Assembly (NCBI RefSeq): GCF_003634575.1
Contig: NZ_RBLJ01000002.1
Coordinates: 248,001 to 312,000 of the forward strand
Length of the DNA: 64,000 nucleotides
Origin: Photorhabdus asymbiotica
Lineage (GTDB): Bacteria > Pseudomonadota > Gammaproteobacteria > Enterobacterales > Enterobacteriaceae
Reading direction: 5' to 3'
The notes under the pieces are model-generated. The model saw nothing but the letters and a program-made list of their open reading frames with translations. It did no database searches and had not been told where the DNA came from. Below are positions 1 to 9,936 of the stretch, piece by piece. Each line of letters opens with the position of its first letter. Position 1 is the stretch's first letter. A program made the position numbers and the translations under genes.

Positions 1-1286
1 CTGCCCAAACCAATTGTATCCAGCTTCGTCCGGGCAAGATTTTTATTCTGCAATCCCATCCGATAGAGGCGATGAATGACTGCTGGCAAGTGTTATCTGT
101 CACTCATCATGGACAACAGCCTATAGCGTCAAATGACGGTGGCAAAGGAACAACATTGACTAACGATGTCACCTTTATTCCAGGGCGACAGGAGTGGCGA
201 CCACCTTACCGCTACAAACCGCTGGCAGATGGCGATGAAGTCGCTACTGTCGTCGGGCCGGGAAGCGAAGAGATTTATGTTAACGAACACGGCGCGATAC
301 GCATCCATTTCCACTGGAACCGCTACGATGAAGCAGATGACCTTGCTTCCTGCTGGGTACGGGTCGCACAGGGCTGGAACGGCAGTGGTTACGGTTTTAT
401 GGCGATCCCCCGCGTCGGGCAAGAAGTGATAATCAGCTATCTTAACGGTGATATCGACCGGCCAATTGTGACAGGCTGCACCTACAACGGCATCAACCGC
501 CCTCCTCTTGATTTACCCGCAGAAAAAACCCGGACTACCTTTAAAACCCGCACTCACAGGGGCCAAGGATTTAATGAGCTGCGCTTTGATGACGCCAAGG
601 GAAGCGAGGAAGTGTTTATTCATGCCCAACGAGATATGAATACACGGGTTCTCTGGGATAAAACCACACAGGTAAGCCATGACCAGAAGACAGAAGTCGA
701 GCATAACCGTACCACTATTATAAAAAACGATGATGATGAGGCCGTGCAAGGTTTCCAGACGCTTGAAGTCAGCCAAAATCAAAATGTGACCATTAAAGGC
801 CAACAAGCCATTTCAATTGGTAAAAGCCATATACTGAACATCACCGACAACCAGCAAATTACCGTCGGTAAACATATTTCGCTGCACTCAGAAAGCGGGC
901 AAATCACCATTGGGAACGCCGGCGGGCAGATAGTCATTGACCCGATGGGGAATATCCGTATCGAGGGAGTCAGCATCACCATGACTGACCATATTACCGG
1001 AAGAAAATCCGCTGATGCGCTGTTTGACTACTCCGCCCGTTATACGCTGCTCAGTGAACAGAGCGGTAAACCACTGGCGCATACCCGCTATACCATTACC
1101 ACCGCTGGCGGTCAGACCCTTTCCGGTAAAACCGATGGGTTGGGCAGAACCGTGACGGTACAGAGTGAGGAGGAAGAAAATCTGCAACTGAGTTCACCAG
1201 AAGCCCCACCGAAACCGAAGCAAACCTTATGTCAGGCCAGTGATAACACACCGGTAGAGCATGTTATGGAATTTATGGAGATATAA
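1..1286 (+). CDS. vgrG: T6SS spike protein VgrG, 5' end outside window
   Basis: VgrG forms the trimeric spike at the tip of the type VI secretion tube and carries effectors out of the cell. The reading frame is open back to the first bases, so the ATG at 72 is internal and the gp27-like N-terminal part is missing here. Visible are the gp5-like OB fold (a GAIRIHFHW segment, then CWVRVAQ, GFMAIPRVGQEV and the conserved VTGCTYNG) and a repetitive beta-helix needle rich in V/I-T-V-G repeats. After the needle comes an extension of about 90 residues (SARYTLLSEQSGKPL onward) that looks like a transthyretin-type cargo-loading domain. The effector gene starts 2 bases after the stop, which fits an adaptor role for the tail. 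The family call is firm; the cargo role of the tail is inferred. Confidence 0.93.
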   Translation, partial: AQTNCIQLRPGKIFILQSHPIEAMNDCWQVLSVTHHGQQPIASNDGGKGTTLTNDVTFIPGRQEWRPPYRYKPLADGDEVATVVGPGSEEIYVNEHGAIRIHFHWNRYDEADDLASCWVRVAQGWNGSGYGFMAIPRVGQEVIISYLNGDIDRPIVTGCTYNGINRPPLDLPAEKTRTTFKTRTHRGQGFNELRFDDAKGSEEVFIHAQRDMNTRVLWDKTTQVSHDQKTEVEHNRTTIIKNDDDEAVQGFQTLEVSQNQNVTIKGQQAISIGKSHILNITDNQQITVGKHISLHSESGQITIGNAGGQIVIDPMGNIRIEGVSITMTDHITGRKSADALFDYSARYTLLSEQSGKPLAHTRYTITTAGGQTLSGKTDGLGRTVTVQSEEEENLQLSSPEAPPKPKQTLCQASDNTPVEHVMEFMEI

Positions 1287-1288
1287 GT

Positions 1289-2647
1289 ATGGCAATATCC
1301 AACAGCGGCAAGATGTGCCCGGCCGTGACCTCAATTAATTGCACGATGGAAATAGGGGTCTTTCCCGCCGATGAAGATCCCTGTTACCTGGCGAGAAAAG
1401 CTGAGTATGCTCTGCGTCTGCCGGCAATGATTATCACCAAGCTGGGAGCTATTCGCTTTCTTAATCAAGTCATTATGAGTGGGTTGATTAAGGTTGAAGA
1501 ACTTAAACATGACTTTCTGTGGCCCTATAAAGCGGAAGTGGTGTTTGCTATCAGAGGGAAGCAAGATGTTCCTCTGCCTATGCTGGCGACTAGTCTGGCC
1601 TCTAAACAGCGTTATGGCGATAACTTACCGCAGTCCAGTAACCCGTTTGCCCGGCCTTCTGCCGAAGACGCGGAAAAATTTGGGGTTGTCGGTATCCGTC
1701 GCCCCGATATTATTCTGGTTAAAAATGAAGCTCTACGTTGGCCGGGTAGAAATGCCACCTACTTCGACGGGTCTGTGCACCCTGATAATCTAAAGATGTT
1801 AATTGAGGTGAAATTTCCGGGGGATTCTCTCAGTAAAATGCAAGAAAAAGATTATATCCAGATTGCGACCGAAGATCGCTTTGGGGTAATGCGCGTCGAT
1901 GACAGCCGCACAGAAGAACAAAAACAGTATGATGAAGCATGGCGAAAACACTATCAACCCGGTTCCCAACACTATAAAAATCCCATACCACTGGCCCCGC
2001 TACCACCCAGTTCACAGCCTGACGATAACACTTTGCCCATCCCTCCCAAAGAGGGAGTACCGGGAACCATTCCACAACCCCTGACAAAAAATCCACCACT
2101 TCTCAGTACCTCCCGCTGGTCTTTTTTACCGAGCTATGAAGACTGGGTTATCCTCGGGCAAGAGGTGGCGGGTCTGGCCGAAAACGGATTGAATTATGTC
2201 CGCGACAGTACCCGGGAGCTCCTTGCCCAGTTTGGTACCTGGTTCAATCAAGCCGGCAAGTGGGTGTGTGAAGAGATTATTGATCCGGTCACTCATCAAG
2301 TCAGCTATGCGTTTTCCTGGGTTAATGAACAAACGGAGAAAATCGTGACCTGGACTGAGAATGAGATAAAAGCCCGGTGGCAAACCGTGCAACAGGGCTC
2401 AGATATCACCCTGGAAGAGCTAAAAAACATTAGCTGGATGCAAATATTAAAAGAGGTGGGTGAAGGCATGCTGGAAATGGTGGTGATTATTGCCGGCGTT
2501 GCCGTTGTTATCCTGGTCACCCTTGCCGTCGCTGCTGCGCTGATTGCACTGGTGGAAATTTTAGCTGCCGCCGCCGCTGTAAGCGCCGCAGCATTAGCCG
2601 CTGTCCTGACAATATTAGCGAGTGTGACATTCGCTACTGCCTCATAA
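1289..2647 (+). CDS. T6SS effector candidate with VRR-NUC nuclease domain and C-terminal membrane segment
   Basis: This 452-residue protein is probably the toxic cargo of the preceding VgrG. Residues 135-195 look like a VRR-NUC (PD-(D/E)xK) nuclease: RRPD with D140, IEVKFPGD with E173 and K175, and Q185 in MQEKDY. A Pro-rich linker follows at about 233-272, then Trp-rich amphipathic helices (280-390). One long hydrophobic stretch at about 396-446 could span the membrane once or twice. VRR-NUC effectors of the TseV type attack DNA in target cells and are neutralised by DUF3396/TsiV-type immunity proteins, which is the type of gene that follows here in five copies. The nuclease sits before the hydrophobic segment; the usual order in toxins is translocation part first. 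The start ATG at 1289 is 2 bases after vgrG, so translation is probably coupled. Toxicity itself is inferred. Confidence 0.75.
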   Translation: MAISNSGKMCPAVTSINCTMEIGVFPADEDPCYLARKAEYALRLPAMIITKLGAIRFLNQVIMSGLIKVEELKHDFLWPYKAEVVFAIRGKQDVPLPMLATSLASKQRYGDNLPQSSNPFARPSAEDAEKFGVVGIRRPDIILVKNEALRWPGRNATYFDGSVHPDNLKMLIEVKFPGDSLSKMQEKDYIQIATEDRFGVMRVDDSRTEEQKQYDEAWRKHYQPGSQHYKNPIPLAPLPPSSQPDDNTLPIPPKEGVPGTIPQPLTKNPPLLSTSRWSFLPSYEDWVILGQEVAGLAENGLNYVRDSTRELLAQFGTWFNQAGKWVCEEIIDPVTHQVSYAFSWVNEQTEKIVTWTENEIKARWQTVQQGSDITLEELKNISWMQILKEVGEGMLEMVVIIAGVAVVILVTLAVAAALIALVEILAAAAAVSAAALAAVLTILASVTFATAS

Positions 2648-2661
2648 TTAACGGAGAGAAT

Positions 2662-3807
2662 ATGGATACTTCAGATTACTTTGCCCAGTTAAAATCACAA
2701 CTGACTTCTTTTCTTTTTATCAATGCCGATGAACTGACTGTTTCCCGCCTGGGTCTCTCGATTACCCTGTTTTTTAAACAAGGCTATACCCAGGAGAAAA
2801 AACAACGCATTCTGGCCTGCTACCGGCGCTTTCGGGAGGAATTCGGTACCCACCTGCGTTTTCACCGTCATGAATTTAAAGGGTTAAGAAAATATTCACC
2901 AGAAAATATTGCTAAAGTTGAAGAGGGCATTCTTAATCAGAAAAAAAATCAGCCCTCTAGCTGGGTAGTCAGTGATGCTAAAAATATCTATGAAGCCCCT
3001 CACTATCTAATGCATTACCTGGATTCTCGAGAAATCGATGGTGACGATGATAGCTCTTACCTCAGTTTGGTATTGCCCTGGGATTATCTGAAAGCACAAG
3101 AGGGCATGACTCGCTTTATGGCCTGGCTGGAATTTCTGTGTGAACAGCTCGAACCCGACAGTGGGGACTGTGGTTACTGCCTGGTCTTACCCAATGATTA
3201 CCATGACTACTTTCCCTTGGAGTACCAGTTAGCGCAACGTTACCCTTCCCTGCAAGTCAATTCCACAGTGCATACCGCTGTATTGCAGTATGAACACTCC
3301 ATCCGTGGCATTAACTGGATCACCTTACTGTCCAAACGCTTTGTAAACCGACTGGGTGGAGAAGTCTGGATACGTAAAACGCTGGCACGTTACACGGATG
3401 TGATGATTAGTCCCTACTCCAATGGCCTGATGATCCGCGCTGGTCAATACCCGGACTTAACGCCTCTGCCGGGCAGTGTCCCGGAGAGTTATTTTGCCAT
3501 TAACCAGCTGATACGTCCGATACGGGTGATACCTCGTGAAGGCCATTCATTGCACTTCTATGGTGAAGGTCATTTTAATTCAACTTCCACCCTAGCCTGG
3601 TATGCCCGTTATGACCGCGGACCTCTACATGTCACTCCGCTGAGAGGTGGTCATCCTGCATTGGTCAGCGGGATTTGGCAAACCGATAGCCTGCCAGGTC
3701 AGCAGTATTTCTTTACTCAGGGTGTGATGGCTTTTGATATTGAAGGCGCAGAGTCAGGGACAACGATATGGCACCTGATACGGGAAACGGCAAATATGTG
3801 GGAATAA
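2662..3807 (+). CDS. T6SS immunity protein, DUF3396/TsiV family, array copy 1
   Basis: This 381-residue protein lacks a signal peptide and membrane segment and so should stay in the cytoplasm, where a nuclease effector would act on kin. It resembles the DUF3396 (TsiV-type) immunity family that accompanies VRR-NUC effectors. It is the first of five tandem homologues and the only one starting MDTSDYF; the others begin with a double Met. An ACGGAGAG ribosome-binding site precedes the ATG. From base 3301 to the stop the DNA is almost identical to the other four copies, while the first two thirds carry copy-specific changes (here NIYEAPHYLMHY and SREIDGDDDS). Immunity function is inferred from family and context. 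Confidence 0.8.
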   Translation: MDTSDYFAQLKSQLTSFLFINADELTVSRLGLSITLFFKQGYTQEKKQRILACYRRFREEFGTHLRFHRHEFKGLRKYSPENIAKVEEGILNQKKNQPSSWVVSDAKNIYEAPHYLMHYLDSREIDGDDDSSYLSLVLPWDYLKAQEGMTRFMAWLEFLCEQLEPDSGDCGYCLVLPNDYHDYFPLEYQLAQRYPSLQVNSTVHTAVLQYEHSIRGINWITLLSKRFVNRLGGEVWIRKTLARYTDVMISPYSNGLMIRAGQYPDLTPLPGSVPESYFAINQLIRPIRVIPREGHSLHFYGEGHFNSTSTLAWYARYDRGPLHVTPLRGGHPALVSGIWQTDSLPGQQYFFTQGVMAFDIEGAESGTTIWHLIRETANMWE

Positions 3808-3841
3808 CAGATTATCCACCACCTCATAATTCACGGAAAAA

Positions 3842-4990
3842 ATGATGGAAACTTCAGATTACTTTGCCCAGTTGAGATCACAACTGACTTCTTTTCTTTT
3901 TATCAATGCCGATGAACTGACTGTTTCTCGTCTGGGCCTCTCGATTACTCTGTTTTTTAAACAGGGTTACACCCTAGAGAAAAAGCAACGCATTCTGGCC
4001 TGTTATCACCGTTTTCGCGAAGAGTTTGGTACCCACCTGCGTTTTCATCGTCATTCACTGAAGGGATTAAAAAAATATTCACCGGAAAATATTGCCAAAG
4101 TAGAAGAAGGTATTCTTAATCAGAAAAAAAACCAGCCCTCTAGTTGGGTAGTCAGTGACGCCAAAAATCTCTATGAAGCCCCTCGCTATCTGATGCGTTA
4201 TCTGGATTCCGATGAAGCTGATGGTGACGATGGTAGCTCTTACCTAAGCCTGACACTTCCTTGGGATTATCTAAAAGGGCAAGAGGGCATGACCCAGTTT
4301 ATGGCCTGGCTGGACTTTCTGTGTGAACAACTCGAACCGGACAGTGGGGACTGTGGCTACAGCCTAGTCATCCCCAGAGATTACCATGACTACTTTCCCT
4401 TAGAGTACCAGCTAGCGCAACGTTATCCCTCCCTGCAAGTCAATTCTGCGGTTCATACTGCGGTATTACAGTATGGGCATTCTATCCGTGGCATTAACTG
4501 GATCACCTTACTGTCCAAACGCTTTGTAAACCGACTGGGTGGAGAAGTCTGGATACGTAAAACGCTGGCACGTTACACGGATGTGATGATTAGTCCCTAC
4601 TCCAATGGCCTGATGATCCGCGCTGGTCAATACCCGGACTTAACGCCTCTGCCGGGCAGTGTCCCGGAGAGTTATTTTGCCATTAACCAGCTGATACGTC
4701 CGATACGGGTGATACCTCGTGAAGGCCATTCATTGCACTTCTATGGTGAAGGTCATTTTAATTCAACTTCCACCCTAGCCTGGTATGCCCGTTATGACCG
4801 CGGACCTCTACATGTCACTCCGCTGAGAGGTGGTCATCCTGCATTGGTCAGCGGGATTTGGCAAACCGATAGCCTGCCCGGTCAGCAGTATTTCTTTACT
4901 CAGGGTGTGATGGCTTTTGATATTGAAGGCGCAGAGTCAGGGACAACGATATGGCACCTGATACGGGAAACGGCAAATATGTGGGAATAA
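3842..4990 (+). CDS. T6SS immunity protein, DUF3396/TsiV family, array copy 2
   Basis: Second array member, 382 residues. It begins MMETSDYF; the second Met aligns with the start of copy 1 and may be the original start. Copy-specific residues cluster before residue about 213: SLKGLKKYSPEN, NLYEAPRYLMRY, SDEADGDDGS, VIPRDYHDY and QYGHSIRG. The rest matches the other copies almost base for base. The 34-base spacer before it (CAGATTATCCACCACC and onward) recurs before copies 3, 4 and 5, so the repeat unit includes spacer plus gene. The role is probably to bind and neutralise a T6SS effector in the cytoplasm. The sequence does not show which effector each copy recognises. Confidence 0.8.
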   Translation: MMETSDYFAQLRSQLTSFLFINADELTVSRLGLSITLFFKQGYTLEKKQRILACYHRFREEFGTHLRFHRHSLKGLKKYSPENIAKVEEGILNQKKNQPSSWVVSDAKNLYEAPRYLMRYLDSDEADGDDGSSYLSLTLPWDYLKGQEGMTQFMAWLDFLCEQLEPDSGDCGYSLVIPRDYHDYFPLEYQLAQRYPSLQVNSAVHTAVLQYGHSIRGINWITLLSKRFVNRLGGEVWIRKTLARYTDVMISPYSNGLMIRAGQYPDLTPLPGSVPESYFAINQLIRPIRVIPREGHSLHFYGEGHFNSTSTLAWYARYDRGPLHVTPLRGGHPALVSGIWQTDSLPGQQYFFTQGVMAFDIEGAESGTTIWHLIRETANMWE

Positions 4991-5024
4991 CAGATTATCC
5001 ACCACCTCATAATTCACGGAAAAA

Positions 5025-6173
5025 ATGATGGAAACTTCAGATTACTTTGCCCAGTTGAGATCACAACTGACCTCTTTTCTTTTTATCAATGCCGATGGGC
5101 TGACTGTTTCTCGCCTGGGTATCTCGATTACCCTGTTTTTTAAACAGGGTTACACTCAGGAGAAAAAACAGCGCATTCTGGCTTGTTACCGGCGCTTTCG
5201 CGAAGAGTTTGGCACTCACCTGCGTTTTCACCGGCATGCACTAAAAGGATTAAAAAAATATTCACCGGAAAATATTGCTAAAGTTGAAGAGGGCATACTA
5301 AATCAGAAAAAAAATCAGCCCTCTACTTGGGATATTAGTGACGCTAAAAATATCTATGAAGCCCCTCGCTATCTGATGCATTACCTAGATTCCGATGAGG
5401 ATGATGGTGACGACAGTAGCTCTTACCTCAGTTTGGTATTACCTTGGGATTATCTGAAAGAACAAGAAGGCATGACCCGATTTACGGCCTGGCTGGATTT
5501 TCTGTGTGACCAACTCGAACCGGACAGTGGAGATTGTGGCTACTGTCTGGTATTACCTAACGACTTCTATGACTATTTTCCCTTAGAGTACCAGTTAGCG
5601 CAACGTTACCCCTCTCTGCAAGTCAATTCTGCGGTTCATACTGCGGTATTACAGTATGAACACTCCATCCGTGGCATTAACTGGATCACCTTACTGTCCA
5701 AACGCTTTGTAAACCGACTGGGTGGAGAAGTCTGGATACGTAAAACGCTGGCACGTTACACGGATGTGATGATTAGTCCCTACTCCAATGGCCTGATGAT
5801 CCGCGCTGGTCAATACCCGGACTTAACGCCTCTGCCGGGCAGTGTCCCGGAGAGTTATTTTGCCATTAACCAGCTGATACGTCCGATACGGGTGATACCT
5901 CGTGAAGGCCATTCATTGCACTTCTATGGTGAAGGTCATTTTAATTCAACTTCCACCCTAGCCTGGTATGCCCGTTATGACCGCGGACCGCTACATGTCA
6001 CTCCGCTGAGAGGTGGTCATCCTGCATTGGTCAGCGGGATTTGGCAAACCGATAGCCTGCCAGGTCAGCAGTATTTCTTTACTCAGGGTGTGATGGCTTT
6101 TGATATTGAAGGCGCAGAGTCAGGGACAACGATATGGCACCTGATACGGGAAACGGCAAATATGTGGGAATAA
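5025..6173 (+). CDS. T6SS immunity protein, DUF3396/TsiV family, array copy 3
   Basis: Third array member, 382 residues, starting exactly 1183 bases after copy 2. It differs from its neighbours at scattered N-terminal positions (ADGLTVSRLGIS, HALKGLKK, TWDISDAKN, SDEDDGDDSS, PNDFYDYF) and agrees with them from SIRGINW to the stop, apart from single silent changes such as CCG for CCT near 5990. No catalytic motif is visible, as expected of an inhibitor. Spacer, ribosome-binding site (ACGGA) and double ATG are the same as in copies 2, 4 and 5, so all five are probably read as one transcript with the effector. Confidence 0.8.
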   Translation: MMETSDYFAQLRSQLTSFLFINADGLTVSRLGISITLFFKQGYTQEKKQRILACYRRFREEFGTHLRFHRHALKGLKKYSPENIAKVEEGILNQKKNQPSTWDISDAKNIYEAPRYLMHYLDSDEDDGDDSSSYLSLVLPWDYLKEQEGMTRFTAWLDFLCDQLEPDSGDCGYCLVLPNDFYDYFPLEYQLAQRYPSLQVNSAVHTAVLQYEHSIRGINWITLLSKRFVNRLGGEVWIRKTLARYTDVMISPYSNGLMIRAGQYPDLTPLPGSVPESYFAINQLIRPIRVIPREGHSLHFYGEGHFNSTSTLAWYARYDRGPLHVTPLRGGHPALVSGIWQTDSLPGQQYFFTQGVMAFDIEGAESGTTIWHLIRETANMWE

Positions 6174-6207
6174 CAGATTATCCACCACCTCATAATTCAC
6201 GGAAAAA

Positions 6208-7356
6208 ATGATGGAAACTTCAGATTACTTTGCCCAGTTGAGATCACAACTGACTTCTTTTCTTTTTATCAATGCCGATGAACTGACTGTTTCTCGCCTG
6301 GGTCTCTCGATTACCCTGTTTTTTAAACAGGGCTACACTCAAGAGAAAAAACAGCGCATTCTGGCTTGTTACCGGCGCTTTCGGGAGGAATTCGGTACCC
6401 ACCTGCGTTTTCACCGTCATGAATTTAAAGGGTTAAGAAAATATTCCCCGGAAAATATTGCCAAAGTGGAAGAGGGTATTCTTAATCAGAAAAAAAACCA
6501 GTTTTCTGGTTGGGTGGTCAGTGATGCTAAAAATGAAGATGAGGCACCTCATTATCTGATGCGTTACTTGGATTCCCGGGAAATAAGTGGTGATAACGGC
6601 AGTTCTTACCTAAGCCTGACACTTCCTTGGAATTATCTGAAAGCACAAGACGGCATGACCCGATTTATGGCCTGGCTGGACTTTCTGTGTGACCAACTTG
6701 AACCGGACAGTGGGGACTGTGGTTATTGTCTGGTCTTACCCAACGACTTCTATGACTACTTTCCTTTAGAGTACCAACTGGCACAACGTTACCCTTCCCT
6801 GCAAGTGAACTCCGCAGTGCACACTGCTAAATTACAGTATGAACACTCCATCCGTGGCATTAACTGGATCACCTTACTGTCCAAACGATTTGTAAACCGA
6901 CTGGGTGGAGAAGTCTGGATACGTAAAACGCTGGCACGTTACACGGATGTGATGATTAGTCCCTACTCCAATGGCCTGATGATCCGCGCTGGTCAATACC
7001 CGGACTTAACGCCTCTGCCGGGCAGTGTCCCGGAGAGTTATTTTGCCATTAACCAGCTGATACGTCCGATACGGGTGATACCTCGTGAAGGCCATTCATT
7101 GCACTTCTATGGTGAAGGTCATTTTAATTCAACTTCCACCCTAGCCTGGTATGCCCGTTATGACCGCGGACCTCTACATGTCACTCCGCTGAGAGGTGGT
7201 CATCCTGCATTGGTCAGCGGGATTTGGCAAACCGATAGCCTGCCCGGTCAGCAGTACTTCTTTGCTCAGGGTGTGATGGCTTTTGATGTTCAAGGTGCAA
7301 AACCGGGCACAACCGTATGGCATCTGGTACGGGAAGCGGCAAATATGTGGGAATAA
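6208..7356 (+). CDS. T6SS immunity protein, DUF3396/TsiV family, array copy 4
   Basis: Fourth array member, 382 residues. The N-terminal variable part resembles copy 1 (HEFKGLRKYS, SREISGDNGS) and also copy 5 (QFSGWVVSDAKNEDEAP, TAKLQYEHS), so it is a mosaic of its neighbours. It is the only copy whose extreme C-terminus departs clearly from the common sequence (FFAQGVMAFDVQGAKPGTTVWHLVREAAN), with matching base changes at about 7250-7345. This tract has escaped the homogenisation that covers the rest of the 3' half. Function is inferred from family and context. Confidence 0.8.
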   Translation: MMETSDYFAQLRSQLTSFLFINADELTVSRLGLSITLFFKQGYTQEKKQRILACYRRFREEFGTHLRFHRHEFKGLRKYSPENIAKVEEGILNQKKNQFSGWVVSDAKNEDEAPHYLMRYLDSREISGDNGSSYLSLTLPWNYLKAQDGMTRFMAWLDFLCDQLEPDSGDCGYCLVLPNDFYDYFPLEYQLAQRYPSLQVNSAVHTAKLQYEHSIRGINWITLLSKRFVNRLGGEVWIRKTLARYTDVMISPYSNGLMIRAGQYPDLTPLPGSVPESYFAINQLIRPIRVIPREGHSLHFYGEGHFNSTSTLAWYARYDRGPLHVTPLRGGHPALVSGIWQTDSLPGQQYFFAQGVMAFDVQGAKPGTTVWHLVREAANMWE

Positions 7357-7390
7357 CAGATTATCCACCACCTCATAATTCACGGAAAAA

Positions 7391-8539
7391 ATGATGGAAA
7401 CTTCAGATTACTTTGCTCAGTTGAAATCACAACTGACCGCGTTTACCTTCCTCAATGGCGATGGGCTGACCGTTTCTCGTCTTGGGATTTCTATCACCCT
7501 GTTTTTTAAACAGGGTTACACCCAGGAGAAAAAGCAACGCATTCTGGCCTGCTACCGCCGCTTTCGCGAAGAGTTTGGTACCTACCTGCGTTTTCACCGT
7601 CATGAGCTGGAAGGGCTAAAAAAATATTCACCAGAAAATATTGCTAAAGTGGAAGAAGGCATTCTTAATCAGAAAAAAAACCAGTTTTCTGGTTGGGTGG
7701 TCAGTGATGCCAAAAATGAAGATGAGGCACCTCGTTATCTGATGCGTTATCTGGATTCCAGAGAAATAGATGGTGACGATGATAGCTCTTACCTAAGTCT
7801 CACACTGCCTTGGGATTATTTGAAAGAACAGGATGGTATGACCCGCTTTATGGCCTGGCTGGACTTTCTATGTGACCAACTCGAACCGGACAGTGGGGAC
7901 TGTGGCTACAGTCTGGTCTTACCCAACGACTTCTATGGCTACTTTCCCTTAGAGTATCAACTGGCGCAACGTTACCCTTCCTTACAAGTGAACTCCGCAG
8001 TGTTCACAGCTAAATTACAGTATGAACACTCCATCCGTGGCATTAACTGGATCACCTTACTGTCCAAACGCTTTGTAAACCGACTGGGTGGAGAAGTCTG
8101 GATACGTAAAACGCTGGCACGTTACACGGATGTGATGATTAGTCCCTACTCCAATGGCCTGATGATCCGCGCTGGTCAATACCCGGACTTAACGCCTCTG
8201 CCGGGCAGTGTCCCGGAGAGTTATTTTGCCATTAACCAGCTGATACGTCCGATACGGGTGATACCTCGTGAAGGCCATTCATTGCACTTCTATGGTGAAG
8301 GTCATTTTAATTCAACTTCCACCCTAGCCTGGTATGCCCGTTATGACCGCGGACCTCTACATGTCACTCCGCTGAGAGGTGGTCATCCTGCATTGGTCAG
8401 CGGGATTTGGCAAACCGATAGCCTGCCAGGTCAGCAGTATTTCTTTGCTCAGGGTGTGATGGCTTTTGATATTGAAGGCGCAGAGTCAGGGACAACAATA
8501 TGGCACCTGATACGGGAAACGGAAAATATAATGGAGTAA
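7391..8539 (+). CDS. T6SS immunity protein, DUF3396/TsiV family, array copy 5
   Basis: Last array member, 382 residues, followed 3 bases later by the PAAR gene. It has the most divergent N-terminus (QLTAFTFLNGDGL, TYLRFHRHELEGL, FYGYF, NSAVFTAKLQ) and ends ETENIME where most copies end ETANMWE. That ending may mark the border of the duplicated unit: the other copies carry GTGGGAATAACAG at the stop, here it is ATGGAGTAAACG. The central and 3' parts are the common sequence. Cytoplasmic immunity to a T6SS nuclease is the likely role. Confidence 0.8.
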   Translation: MMETSDYFAQLKSQLTAFTFLNGDGLTVSRLGISITLFFKQGYTQEKKQRILACYRRFREEFGTYLRFHRHELEGLKKYSPENIAKVEEGILNQKKNQFSGWVVSDAKNEDEAPRYLMRYLDSREIDGDDDSSYLSLTLPWDYLKEQDGMTRFMAWLDFLCDQLEPDSGDCGYSLVLPNDFYGYFPLEYQLAQRYPSLQVNSAVFTAKLQYEHSIRGINWITLLSKRFVNRLGGEVWIRKTLARYTDVMISPYSNGLMIRAGQYPDLTPLPGSVPESYFAINQLIRPIRVIPREGHSLHFYGEGHFNSTSTLAWYARYDRGPLHVTPLRGGHPALVSGIWQTDSLPGQQYFFAQGVMAFDIEGAESGTTIWHLIRETENIME

Positions 8540-8542
8540 ACG

Positions 8543-8815
8543 ATGCGAAGTGTAGTGGAAGGAAAGAAAATTATACTTAAAGGTGATACCACCACAACCG
8601 GAGGCGATGTTTTAAATGGCTCCGGCTTGGTAAACCAACAACGATCGGTTGCCTGTAAAGGCGATCCGGTGTTTTGCCCTGCCTGCAAACAAACAGGTGC
8701 TATTGCAGAAGGCTCCCATTTGTTCAATATACAGGGAATACCTGTTGCACTGGAGGGGCACATTGTTAATTGTGGTTGCTCAACTGGAGCCTGTAGATTA
8801 AAGGTACGGCCATAA
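8543..8815 (+). CDS. PAAR-domain T6SS tip protein
   Basis: This 90-residue protein matches a stand-alone PAAR domain, the small cone that sharpens the VgrG spike and binds zinc with His and Cys residues. Typical features are GDTTTTGGDVLNGSG at residues 14-28, two Cys in FCPACKQ, and the closing VALEGHIVNCGCST. It has no toxin extension, so it is structural and not itself an effector. It starts 3 bases after immunity copy 5 and closes the vgrG-effector-immunity cassette; PAAR genes more often sit beside vgrG, so the array has probably grown between them. Confidence 0.9.
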   Translation: MRSVVEGKKIILKGDTTTTGGDVLNGSGLVNQQRSVACKGDPVFCPACKQTGAIAEGSHLFNIQGIPVALEGHIVNCGCSTGACRLKVRP

Positions 8816-9683
8816 ATACCAATGTCTTCAGTGCTGCCTCGGTCTAAAAAGATATCTCAATCCCAGATAAATGCATTCAGGCCAGTATGAATGTTTTAAA
8901 CAAGGCATTACCAGAAGATACTGTATTGTCCATATTATCAAGGTGATAAAACTTCAATGCTTTTTTATACGGAACCGATATTACGCTAGATTTTATGATA
9001 AGCAGGTTTTAAAAAGTTATTATTTTAACTTATGGTTTTAACTGGTATAAAGTTTTTACCATTGTTTTTACCACTTTTAACACCTGCTTTTTGTTAAGTT
9101 TAATCACCATCGGCTATCATGTGTTTTACTTTTAACGAATGCTTATTATGCCCGCTTTTTATTTTTACTGACTCTGCTTTTCGATTTTTCCCTTTTTTAT
9201 CACCGCCTATCGTTTACGATAATATTTACTGAAAATCCCGAGGATTTTCATCGTCCTCCCTGCATTTTTTCTTCATAAATAAACCAATAAATAACCTGAT
9301 TAGATAAAATCCGCTCCTTCTGTTTTTTCAGATAATTCCTCCATTTTTCAAATGGCTTAAATCCTGCCAGATTAATCGCTTTATCCCTTTTTTACTGCAT
9401 CATTCTTAAAGTTTTCTACGTAATATAACCAGCGAGAAAACAATTAAACTCCATCTATTTAAATAATATTCTTTTACATGCCGATTCCTTTTCAACTCGT
9501 TATTAATAGTTAATTGTTTTCAGTTAAATACAATTAACTCTCCAGTTGAAAAGTTACATTTACTGAGTTAAATCGGTTTTTTTAAATCTTAAATACCTCG
9601 GTATTCACGATTTTAAATGATTGCGGCAGGTTAGTTAAATGTAAAATAAGCGGAATATAGAATCGCCGATAAATGAATTGAAT

Positions 9684-9812
9684 ATATACCCTTCATCCTT
9701 CAAGTTGCTGCTTTGTTGGCTGCTTTCACTCACCCCAGTCACATAGTTATCTATGCTCCTGGGGATTCGTTCACTTGCCGCCGCGCTGCAACTCGAAATT
9801 TATTGGGTATAT
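9684..9812 (+). repeat. Dispersed repeat of about 127 bp, copy A
   Basis: The element begins ATATACCC and ends GGGTATAT, so it has inverted termini like a small non-autonomous element (MITE or BIME-like). It contains CTTCAAGTTGCTGCTTTG, CAGTCACATAGTTATCTATG and CTCGAAATTTATTGGG. Read on the opposite strand, copy C at 15622-15749 appears identical to it base for base. No reading frame is evident. I recall repeats of this kind as widespread in Photorhabdus and Xenorhabdus. Confidence 0.85.
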
Positions 9813-9936
9813 ACCGTTTATCTTTCAAGTTGCTGCTTTATTAGTTGCTTTCACTTACCCCAGTCACATCGTTATCTATGCTCCTGAGGATTCGTTCACT
9901 TGCCGCCACGCTGCGGCTCGAAATCTATTAGGTATA
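9809..9936 (+). repeat. Dispersed repeat of about 127 bp, copy B (diverged)
   Basis: This second copy abuts copy A in the same orientation and shares its terminal ATAT bases. It has about a dozen substitutions relative to A and C (for example CCGTTTATCTTTCAAG at the left, GCGGCTCGAAATCTATTAGG at the right), and its right end is only GGTATA. It is therefore an older copy, or one not recently homogenised. Confidence 0.8.

Follow-up and report, generated by a model that had tools for sequence, protein, structure and literature searches.

Nuclease effectors of the VRR-NUC family and the DUF3396 immunity proteins encoded behind them are known as TseV and TsiV from the type VI secretion system (T6SS) of Salmonella bongori SPI-22 where, in the passages of that report on these loci, a VRR-NUC effector precedes DUF3396 genes, sometimes two, and TseV2 is neutralised by the first of its two tandem TsiV2 copies but not by the second (PMC9635880). 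The same passages note a tandem DUF3396 arrangement in Photorhabdus thracensis and P. asymbiotica and leave the role of the extra copies open, with regulation as one option. The T6SS immunity arrays of Vibrio cholerae, as set out in the part of PMC5361080 that deals with them, consist of one effector followed by several genes resembling the cognate immunity genes of other strains; they are thought to be protective against kin, and the model given there rejects duplication since copies of one genome do not cluster. Homogeneous polyimmunity loci, in the account of them in PMC3482391, consist of tandem paralogues from a single immunity family that share a strand, are separated by short gaps and have no toxin gene among them; they are proposed as a backup against the toxins of non-kin. 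The locus analysed here lies in a window of 64,000 nucleotides of P. asymbiotica (contig NZ_RBLJ01000002.1, positions 248,001 to 312,000; G000:C2:248001-312000, where G000 is the genome under study) and is probably a T6SS VRR-NUC island with a homogeneous immunity array, in which swappable recognition segments on a homogenised scaffold serve as spares against the effectors of rivals.

By name the families are those of S. bongori, but in place of one or two copies there are five, with a shared 3' half and a variable, putative recognition half (PMC9635880, same passages). The V. cholerae arrays differ in that whole genes are added by displacement, whereas here sub-gene segments appear to sit on a shared scaffold (PMC5361080). 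With five TsiV genes on one strand and 34-nt gaps the array has the layout of a homogeneous polyimmunity locus, although DUF3396/TsiV is absent from the homogeneous loci named in section 39 of PMC3482391. An experimental precedent is found in Proteus mirabilis, in which PefE and PefE2 are two near-copy immunity genes whose strain specificity is set by a variable inner segment, PefE2 protecting against the operon of another strain; that system differs in its predicted propeller fold, its eight-gene effector operon and its two copies only (PMC5714391, in the part on these genes). The TseV/TsiV families and the idea of spare-immunity arrays are thus already known (PMC9635880, PMC5361080 and PMC3482391, in the parts cited), and a literature search found no report of this five-copy array.

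The sequence-only reading had placed five TsiV genes behind a single effector, and five complete open reading frames (ORFs) of 381 or 382 amino acids were indeed found on the same strand behind one upstream gene matching PF08774 (VRR_NUC). All four gaps are identical. Steps between copies measure exactly 1183 bp for all four intervals when counted from the shared METSDYF/MDTSDYF start; the first step of 1180 bp given in that reading results from an extra ATG in copies 2-5. All five genes were matched in a search of their own genome with PF11876, where nine of nine matches covered the full model at 246-267 bits (cut-off 25), with a direct scan of copies 1 and 5 in addition; membership of the TsiV family is further seen in the fold, that of PA0821/TsiT. 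The features of the effector and the array are as follows.

1289..2647, + strand: VRR-NUC effector, TseV-like, 452 amino acids (PF08774, 53.4 bits, cut-off 23.8)
1823..1876, + strand: hypervariable effector segment, residues 179-196, after the putative E173-V-K175 catalytic motif (entropy, covariation peak, predicted α2)
2662..3807, + strand: TsiV copy 1, adjoining the effector and presumed cognate (PF11876, 263 bits)
3842..4990, + strand: TsiV copy 2 (complete ORF, PF11876)
5025..6173, + strand: TsiV copy 3 (complete ORF, PF11876)
6208..7356, + strand: TsiV copy 4, with a 5' mosaic and a diverged last ~99 nt (complete ORF, PF11876, pairwise differences)
7391..8539, + strand: TsiV copy 5 (complete ORF, PF11876)
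2842..3303, + strand: putative recognition segment of copy 1, codons 61-214 (covariation)
4025..4486, + strand: putative recognition segment of copy 2, codons 61-214 (covariation)
5208..5669, + strand: putative recognition segment of copy 3, codons 61-214 (covariation)
6391..6852, + strand: putative recognition segment of copy 4, codons 61-214 (covariation)
7574..8035, + strand: putative recognition segment of copy 5, codons 61-214 (covariation)
3304..3708, + strand: homogenised block of copy 1, nt 643-1047 (pairwise differences)
4487..4891, + strand: homogenised block of copy 2, nt 643-1047 (pairwise differences)
5670..6074, + strand: homogenised block of copy 3, nt 643-1047 (pairwise differences)
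6853..7257, + strand: homogenised block of copy 4, nt 643-1047 (pairwise differences)
8036..8440, + strand: homogenised block of copy 5, nt 643-1047 (pairwise differences)

All ten copy pairs differ at 81-112 nt within nt 1-639, at 0-4 nt within nt 640-1047 (408 nt) and at 0-18 nt within the last 99 nt, where copy 4 stands apart by 14-18 differences and copy 5 by 7 from copies 1-3. Near-identity to the very 3' end is limited to copies 1-3, and of the uniform 3' ends of ~507 nt described earlier, nt 640-1047 stand and the last ~99 nt of copies 4 and 5 do not. The 207 variable columns are divided into 184 in nt 1-642, four in nt 643-1047 and 19 in nt 1048-1146, and a count of at most four in nt 643-1047 is not due to chance (hypergeometric P ~9e-38). 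The border of divergence near codon 214 is common to all ten pairs; no E. coli Chi octamer was found at it or elsewhere in window positions 1-9000 on either strand. A repeated stem, CCGGGCAGTGTCCCGG, considered as a possible internal terminator, sits within every TsiV ORF. The first ~640 nt are variable as had been claimed, but most of the differences are silent (proportion of silent differences, pS, 0.447; of amino acid-changing differences, pN, 0.063). Copy 4 proved to be the mosaic of copies 1 and 5 that had been proposed (104 informative sites, permutation p = 0.0005), being mostly copy 1-like over nt 1-240, mostly copy 5-like over about nt 258-400 and mixed beyond; a mosaic signal is also present for copies 1, 2, 3 and 5 in some triplets (p ≤ 0.005).

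For the comparison across the genus, contigs of nine named Photorhabdus species and this genome yielded 56 full-length TsiV genes and 29 intact effectors; 28 of these effectors have a full TsiV directly behind them and form the effector/first-copy pairs in which covariation was analysed. Left out were truncated TsiV genes, L078 (a locus of low similarity, 67% to the query), the two Xenorhabdus loci and L083-L086, and among effectors L072 (start outside the pattern) and partial ones (in L053, L073 and L086 among others; length filter); the L077 effector, whose immunity gene is cut off by the contig end, was not used as a pair. Effectors were typed by seven residues of helix α2 (e.g. SSKMEKI).

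The strongest of 23 tile correlations with residues 61-214 of the first immunity copy was that of effector tile 181-200 (r 0.48, p 0.001, 28 pairs), and the 13 intervening tiles (201 to 452) gave r values of -0.20 to 0.15, the largest for 201-220 (p 0.023). In a separate screen of many effector and immunity segment pairs, P values were based on 500 permutations and were not corrected for multiple testing. Immunity residues 215-381 showed the opposite pattern and tracked mostly the two ends of the effector. The α2 signal was retained once the remainder of the effector and silent distance were corrected for (partial Mantel r 0.41, p 0.001), under within-species permutation (r 0.44, p 0.0002; 4,999 permutations) and among pairs from different species only (r 0.42), and none of 1000 random sets of seven other variable effector positions reached the α2 value. 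Immunity residues 281-346 and 347-381 gave no signal with α2 in the 28 pairs, and codons 1-60, variable at silent sites, had little link to it. Silent sites of residues 61-214 also track α2 (partial r 0.25, p 0.001), as is to be expected if segments are exchanged whole. Linkage as the sole cause of the covariation was rejected, the intervening effector and immunity DNA being without the same covariation.

The signal extends to individual loci. Twelve locus pairs of the same α2 type have a mean distance over residues 61-214 of 0.086, compared with ~0.16 for other pairs, and their tails are no closer (0.25 versus 0.23). Where immunity distance is below 0.08 the type is the same, with at most one of the seven positions differing, in 15 of 22 pairs, falling to 12 of 73 at 0.08-0.12 and to 1 of 401 at 0.12 or more. 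In leave-one-out tests the nearest neighbour by residues 61-214 gave the effector type to within one of the seven residues for 15 of 28 loci, and the neighbour by residues 215-381 for none of 28. In a held-out genome (G006), residues 61-214 gave the exact type at three of four loci, with two neighbours tied at the fourth, one a residue off and the other two off; residues 215-381 gave it at one of four. Such a result has a chance of ~6e-5 if the tie is counted as a success and the loci are independent. These comparisons of sequences suggest that the N-terminal part of TsiV carries recognition, as proposed in the sequence-only reading, with the role narrowed from the whole of that part to residues 61-214.

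Tile 181-200 also has the highest amino acid diversity of the 23 effector tiles (pN 0.170), with entropy peaks of 2.1-2.5 at residues 180, 183, 184 and 187, just past the invariant E173-V-K175; high variability is also seen at two isolated positions, 91 and 317. Asp140, Glu173 and Lys175 are invariant in 31 sequences, and their catalytic role would be that carried over from the family. A model of the effector, from which only secondary structure was used, predicts a strand at 170-175 followed by a helix at 183-192 (low confidence, mean pLDDT 41.5). Searches for a solved relative gave none by single sequence at E 1 and one chance-level match by profile (E 0.27). In the TseV3:TsiV3 complex, as the structural part of PMC9635880 describes it, the immunity protein binds helix α2, with TsiV3 Leu131 set against TseV3 Pro256 at the α2 N terminus. 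Pro256 is nine residues past catalytic Lys247, a spacing that by counting leads to residue 184 here, and Leu131 aligns, via a locus fitting TsiV3, to Leu120 of copy 1, two residues from covarying residue 118. Covarying residues 69, 100, 102 and 118 are placed by the TsiV model on strands 67-70, 100-104 and 116-120, and the invariant residues between them fit one face of a sheet, as such a face would give; residues 204-211 of the model are a low-confidence stretch. TsiV residues ~61-214, comprising β-sheet strands and loops, may thus bind the N terminus of helix α2 and block the nuclease.

The downstream copies match first copies of other loci more closely than their own. Over residues 61-214 the first copy of the same array is nearest for 1 of 21 downstream copies, compared with 11 for residues 215-280, 10 for 281-346 and 8 for 347-381, and for 20 of the 21 the first copy of another locus is nearer or tied; the non-first copies thereby resemble the cognate immunity of other strains as those of V. 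cholerae do (PMC5361080, in the part on its model). Their reading frames are under purifying selection, with a ratio of nonsynonymous to synonymous rates (dN/dS) over residues 61-214 of 0.161, and of 0.177 in first copies. All four full downstream copies of G006 decode to a type unlike that of their own effector, one resembling another G006 effector. In the window, the three nearest of the 28 first copies to copy 2 all accompany DSDDExI effectors (P. luminescens, P. akhurstii and P. namnaonensis), a VSDNERI first copy tying for third once the held-out genome is added, and copy 2 shares the following stretch, which falls mostly where loci normally diverge strongly at silent sites.

4280..4542, + strand: stretch of copy 2, 263 nt, identical throughout to the TsiV beside the effector in P. 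luminescens DSM 3368 (L057:8436-8698) (identity)

Codons 99-150 of copy 5 agree at 153 of 156 nt with a downstream copy (copy 2) of a P. noenieputensis array, and the fourth copy of a second array in the genome, described below, is nearest to ESRDEKI-type first copies (0.039). From their sequences, downstream copies in general, and copy 2 confidently, look like immunity to the effectors of other strains. The store of immunity against rivals proposed earlier is supported to this extent. Copies 3, 4 and 5 are 0.091-0.104 from their nearest first copy; same-type pairs are uncommon at 0.08-0.12, and no confident partner effector can therefore be assigned to them.

Uniformity of the 3' half is local to arrays and strongest in this genome. 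Over codons 215-381 pS is 0.041 within the window array and 0.403 between arrays, whereas over codons 1-214 it is 0.447 and 0.474; the other arrays taken together (23 pairs) have a 3'-half pS of 0.279, less uniform than the window and below the between-array level. The uniformity does not reach beyond single arrays, and the 3' half is therefore not a conserved functional half; conservation of the C-terminal half across the genus was ruled out by a between-array pN of 0.095, at least as high as the 0.080 of codons 1-214. In a tree of residues 215-381 the five window copies group together in a single clade with support 0.997, and the second array's four copies do likewise (0.998); in the tree of residues 61-214 the smallest clade holding all window copies is the entire 56-gene tree. 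The Vibrio finding that alleles of one genome do not cluster (PMC5361080, same part) accordingly holds for codons 61-214 and not for 215-381. Since the window copies cluster in one half only, exchange of sub-gene segments is called for. Of the proposal that gene conversion keeps the C-terminal part uniform, homogenisation of the 3' half within this array is supported, whereas a C-terminal half conserved in common between arrays is not; as a process gene conversion is not separable from recent amplification with replacement of 5' segments.

Collectively, these data suggest that copy 1 most likely provides immunity to the resident effector, and that copies 2-5 carry other recognition segments. 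These segments would have passed between Photorhabdus species in pieces smaller than a gene, and the copies that carry them most likely confer protection against the effector variants of rival strains. Recombination among the tandem copies may keep the 3' half uniform, and selection for differing recognition segments most likely halts this uniformity near codon 214.

Several observations weigh against this interpretation. Covariation with α2 does not stop sharply at codon 214, immunity residues 215-280 also tracking it (r 0.23, within-species p 0.0002), and two further effector tiles, 81-100 and 161-180, show correlation with the N-terminal and the C-terminal half of the immunity protein alike. 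Two P. thracensis loci of the same α2 type have dissimilar immunity segments (0.20), a clear exception. The pair in the window itself fits poorly: its effector, of type SSKMEKI, is the sole one of its type in the set, the closest first copies to copy 1 belong to GSDNERI-type effectors (0.058), a kernel score for the resident effector slightly favours copy 2 over copy 1, and SSK-type effectors decode badly in general. In 10 of 14 arrays the first copy is the one that best matches the effector of its array (6.1 expected by chance, P 0.03), but this test does not discriminate, since the C-terminal half scores almost as high, with 9 of 14. For second copies a correlation with their own effector persists, though weaker (partial r 0.28, p 0.029). 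The distances of copies 3-5 given above belong here too, as do three other multi-copy loci that do not form single clades in the tree of residues 215-381 (L063, 7 tips; L059, 26; L053, 26, the last of these loci holding two arrays). Finally, dN/dS in the variable half averages 0.14-0.18, far below 1 and purifying rather than diversifying, which speaks against positive selection over the whole 5' half; the 17 covarying sites have a dN/dS of 0.64 compared with 0.12 for the remaining sites, a contrast that is not independent because the 17 were chosen partly for variability.

Were all five copies to neutralise the resident effector, as dosage or backup, with the 5' variation as neutral drift in a tandem duplication, one would expect the intact, evenly spaced copies in the same orientation, the mostly silent 5' differences and the weak correlation of second copies with their own effector. 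Drift, however, leaves unexplained both the near-zero silent divergence in one half beside species-level divergence in the other and the covariation with α2; the nearer or tied foreign first copies of 20 of the 21 downstream copies and the non-neutralising second TsiV2 of S. bongori (PMC9635880, passages on tandem copies) also argue against it, and we consider it unlikely. Regulation of the effector operon by the extra copies, in place of immunity to rivals, was proposed by the TseV authors by analogy with the immunity protein of another PD-(D/E)xK effector (PMC9635880, same passages); it would give no reason for downstream segments to lie near the first copies of particular foreign effector types, nor does it explain several differing copies, and it appears very unlikely.

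It is also conceivable, though improbable, that the pattern is mechanical, with a recent amplification of one TsiV gene, random foreign replacement of 5' parts and spares without a selected function. The dN/dS of 28 full downstream copies, like that of first copies, speaks against this, as does the covariation of first copies with α2, by which the exchanged segment matters to the effector; the sharp common border near codon 214, the 263-nt identity with P. luminescens and the degraded downstream copies of other species are points in its favour. Exchange of recognition segments for immunity to rivals is thus preferred. More tentatively, and with some doubt, the array may be viewed as a recombinational immune memory below the level of the gene, in which homologous recombination captures foreign segments of ~460 bp onto a resident scaffold that is kept uniform within the array; this store would be readable from sequence because residues 61-214 would name the α2 type of the effector resisted.

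The island runs in the order vgrG, effector, five TsiV genes and PAAR gene, flanked as follows.

1..1286, + strand: 3' part of vgrG, T6SS tip protein (PF22178, PF04717; TIGR03361 positions 305-512 of 513)
8543..8815, + strand: PAAR-motif spike-tip gene, which closes the island (PF05488, 68 bits)

The vgrG frame is open as far as the window start, and the gene therefore begins outside the window. For the N-terminal PAAR-like domain of TseV effectors, no PAAR match was found in this effector by Pfam or NCBIfam at E 0.001; a separate PAAR gene lies 3' of the array. Between that gene and an hldE-like gene, window positions 9683-9936 hold two 125-bp direct repeats, 89% alike, in an AT-rich stretch.

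A second array lies ~120 kb off, with an effector and four TsiV genes in 1182-bp steps (C2:370023-374737; L009:6649-12714, G000:C2:368649-374714), after degS and before murA by reading of the ORFs; no vgrG or PAAR was recognised among the ORFs listed beside it. Around codons 281-346 its copies 1/4 and 2/3 form two classes. The genome totals two VRR-NUC genes and nine full TsiV genes. Two relics were also seen, both on the minus strand: on C6 (L010:5443-6129) a C-terminal effector piece followed by 62 codons of TsiV, close to a T6SS gene resembling tssB, and on C3 (L011:4954-5136) the final 60 codons of TsiV, next to an ORF resembling a decarboxylase.

Named relatives of the window TsiV at 82% identity or more are from Photorhabdus only, and TsiV is present in 11 of 12 genus genomes searched (this genome included) and in 19 of 198 sampled from the taxonomic family. 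The 28 arrays have one full copy in 14 cases, two in 10, three in two, four in one and five in one, that of the window; those at contig ends may be longer than counted. Truncated or broken downstream TsiV genes in other Photorhabdus species (L052, L055, L057, L067, L074 and L076) indicate that spare copies are also lost. In Xenorhabdus mauleonii (L079:6440-15067), two effector/TsiV pairs are separated by a few kb; their TsiV proteins are near-identical at the C-terminal ends and differ in the N-terminal parts, a pattern like that of the window array but without tandem copies.

The array and the genus-wide covariation provide a specific and cheaply testable answer to the role of spare DUF3396 copies, namely that they would be immunity to the variants of other strains, and that the matching effector partner would often be readable from residues 61-214. 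If true, this would help to predict which Photorhabdus strains can coexist, and would mean that T6SS immunity can spread as recognition segments and not as whole genes.

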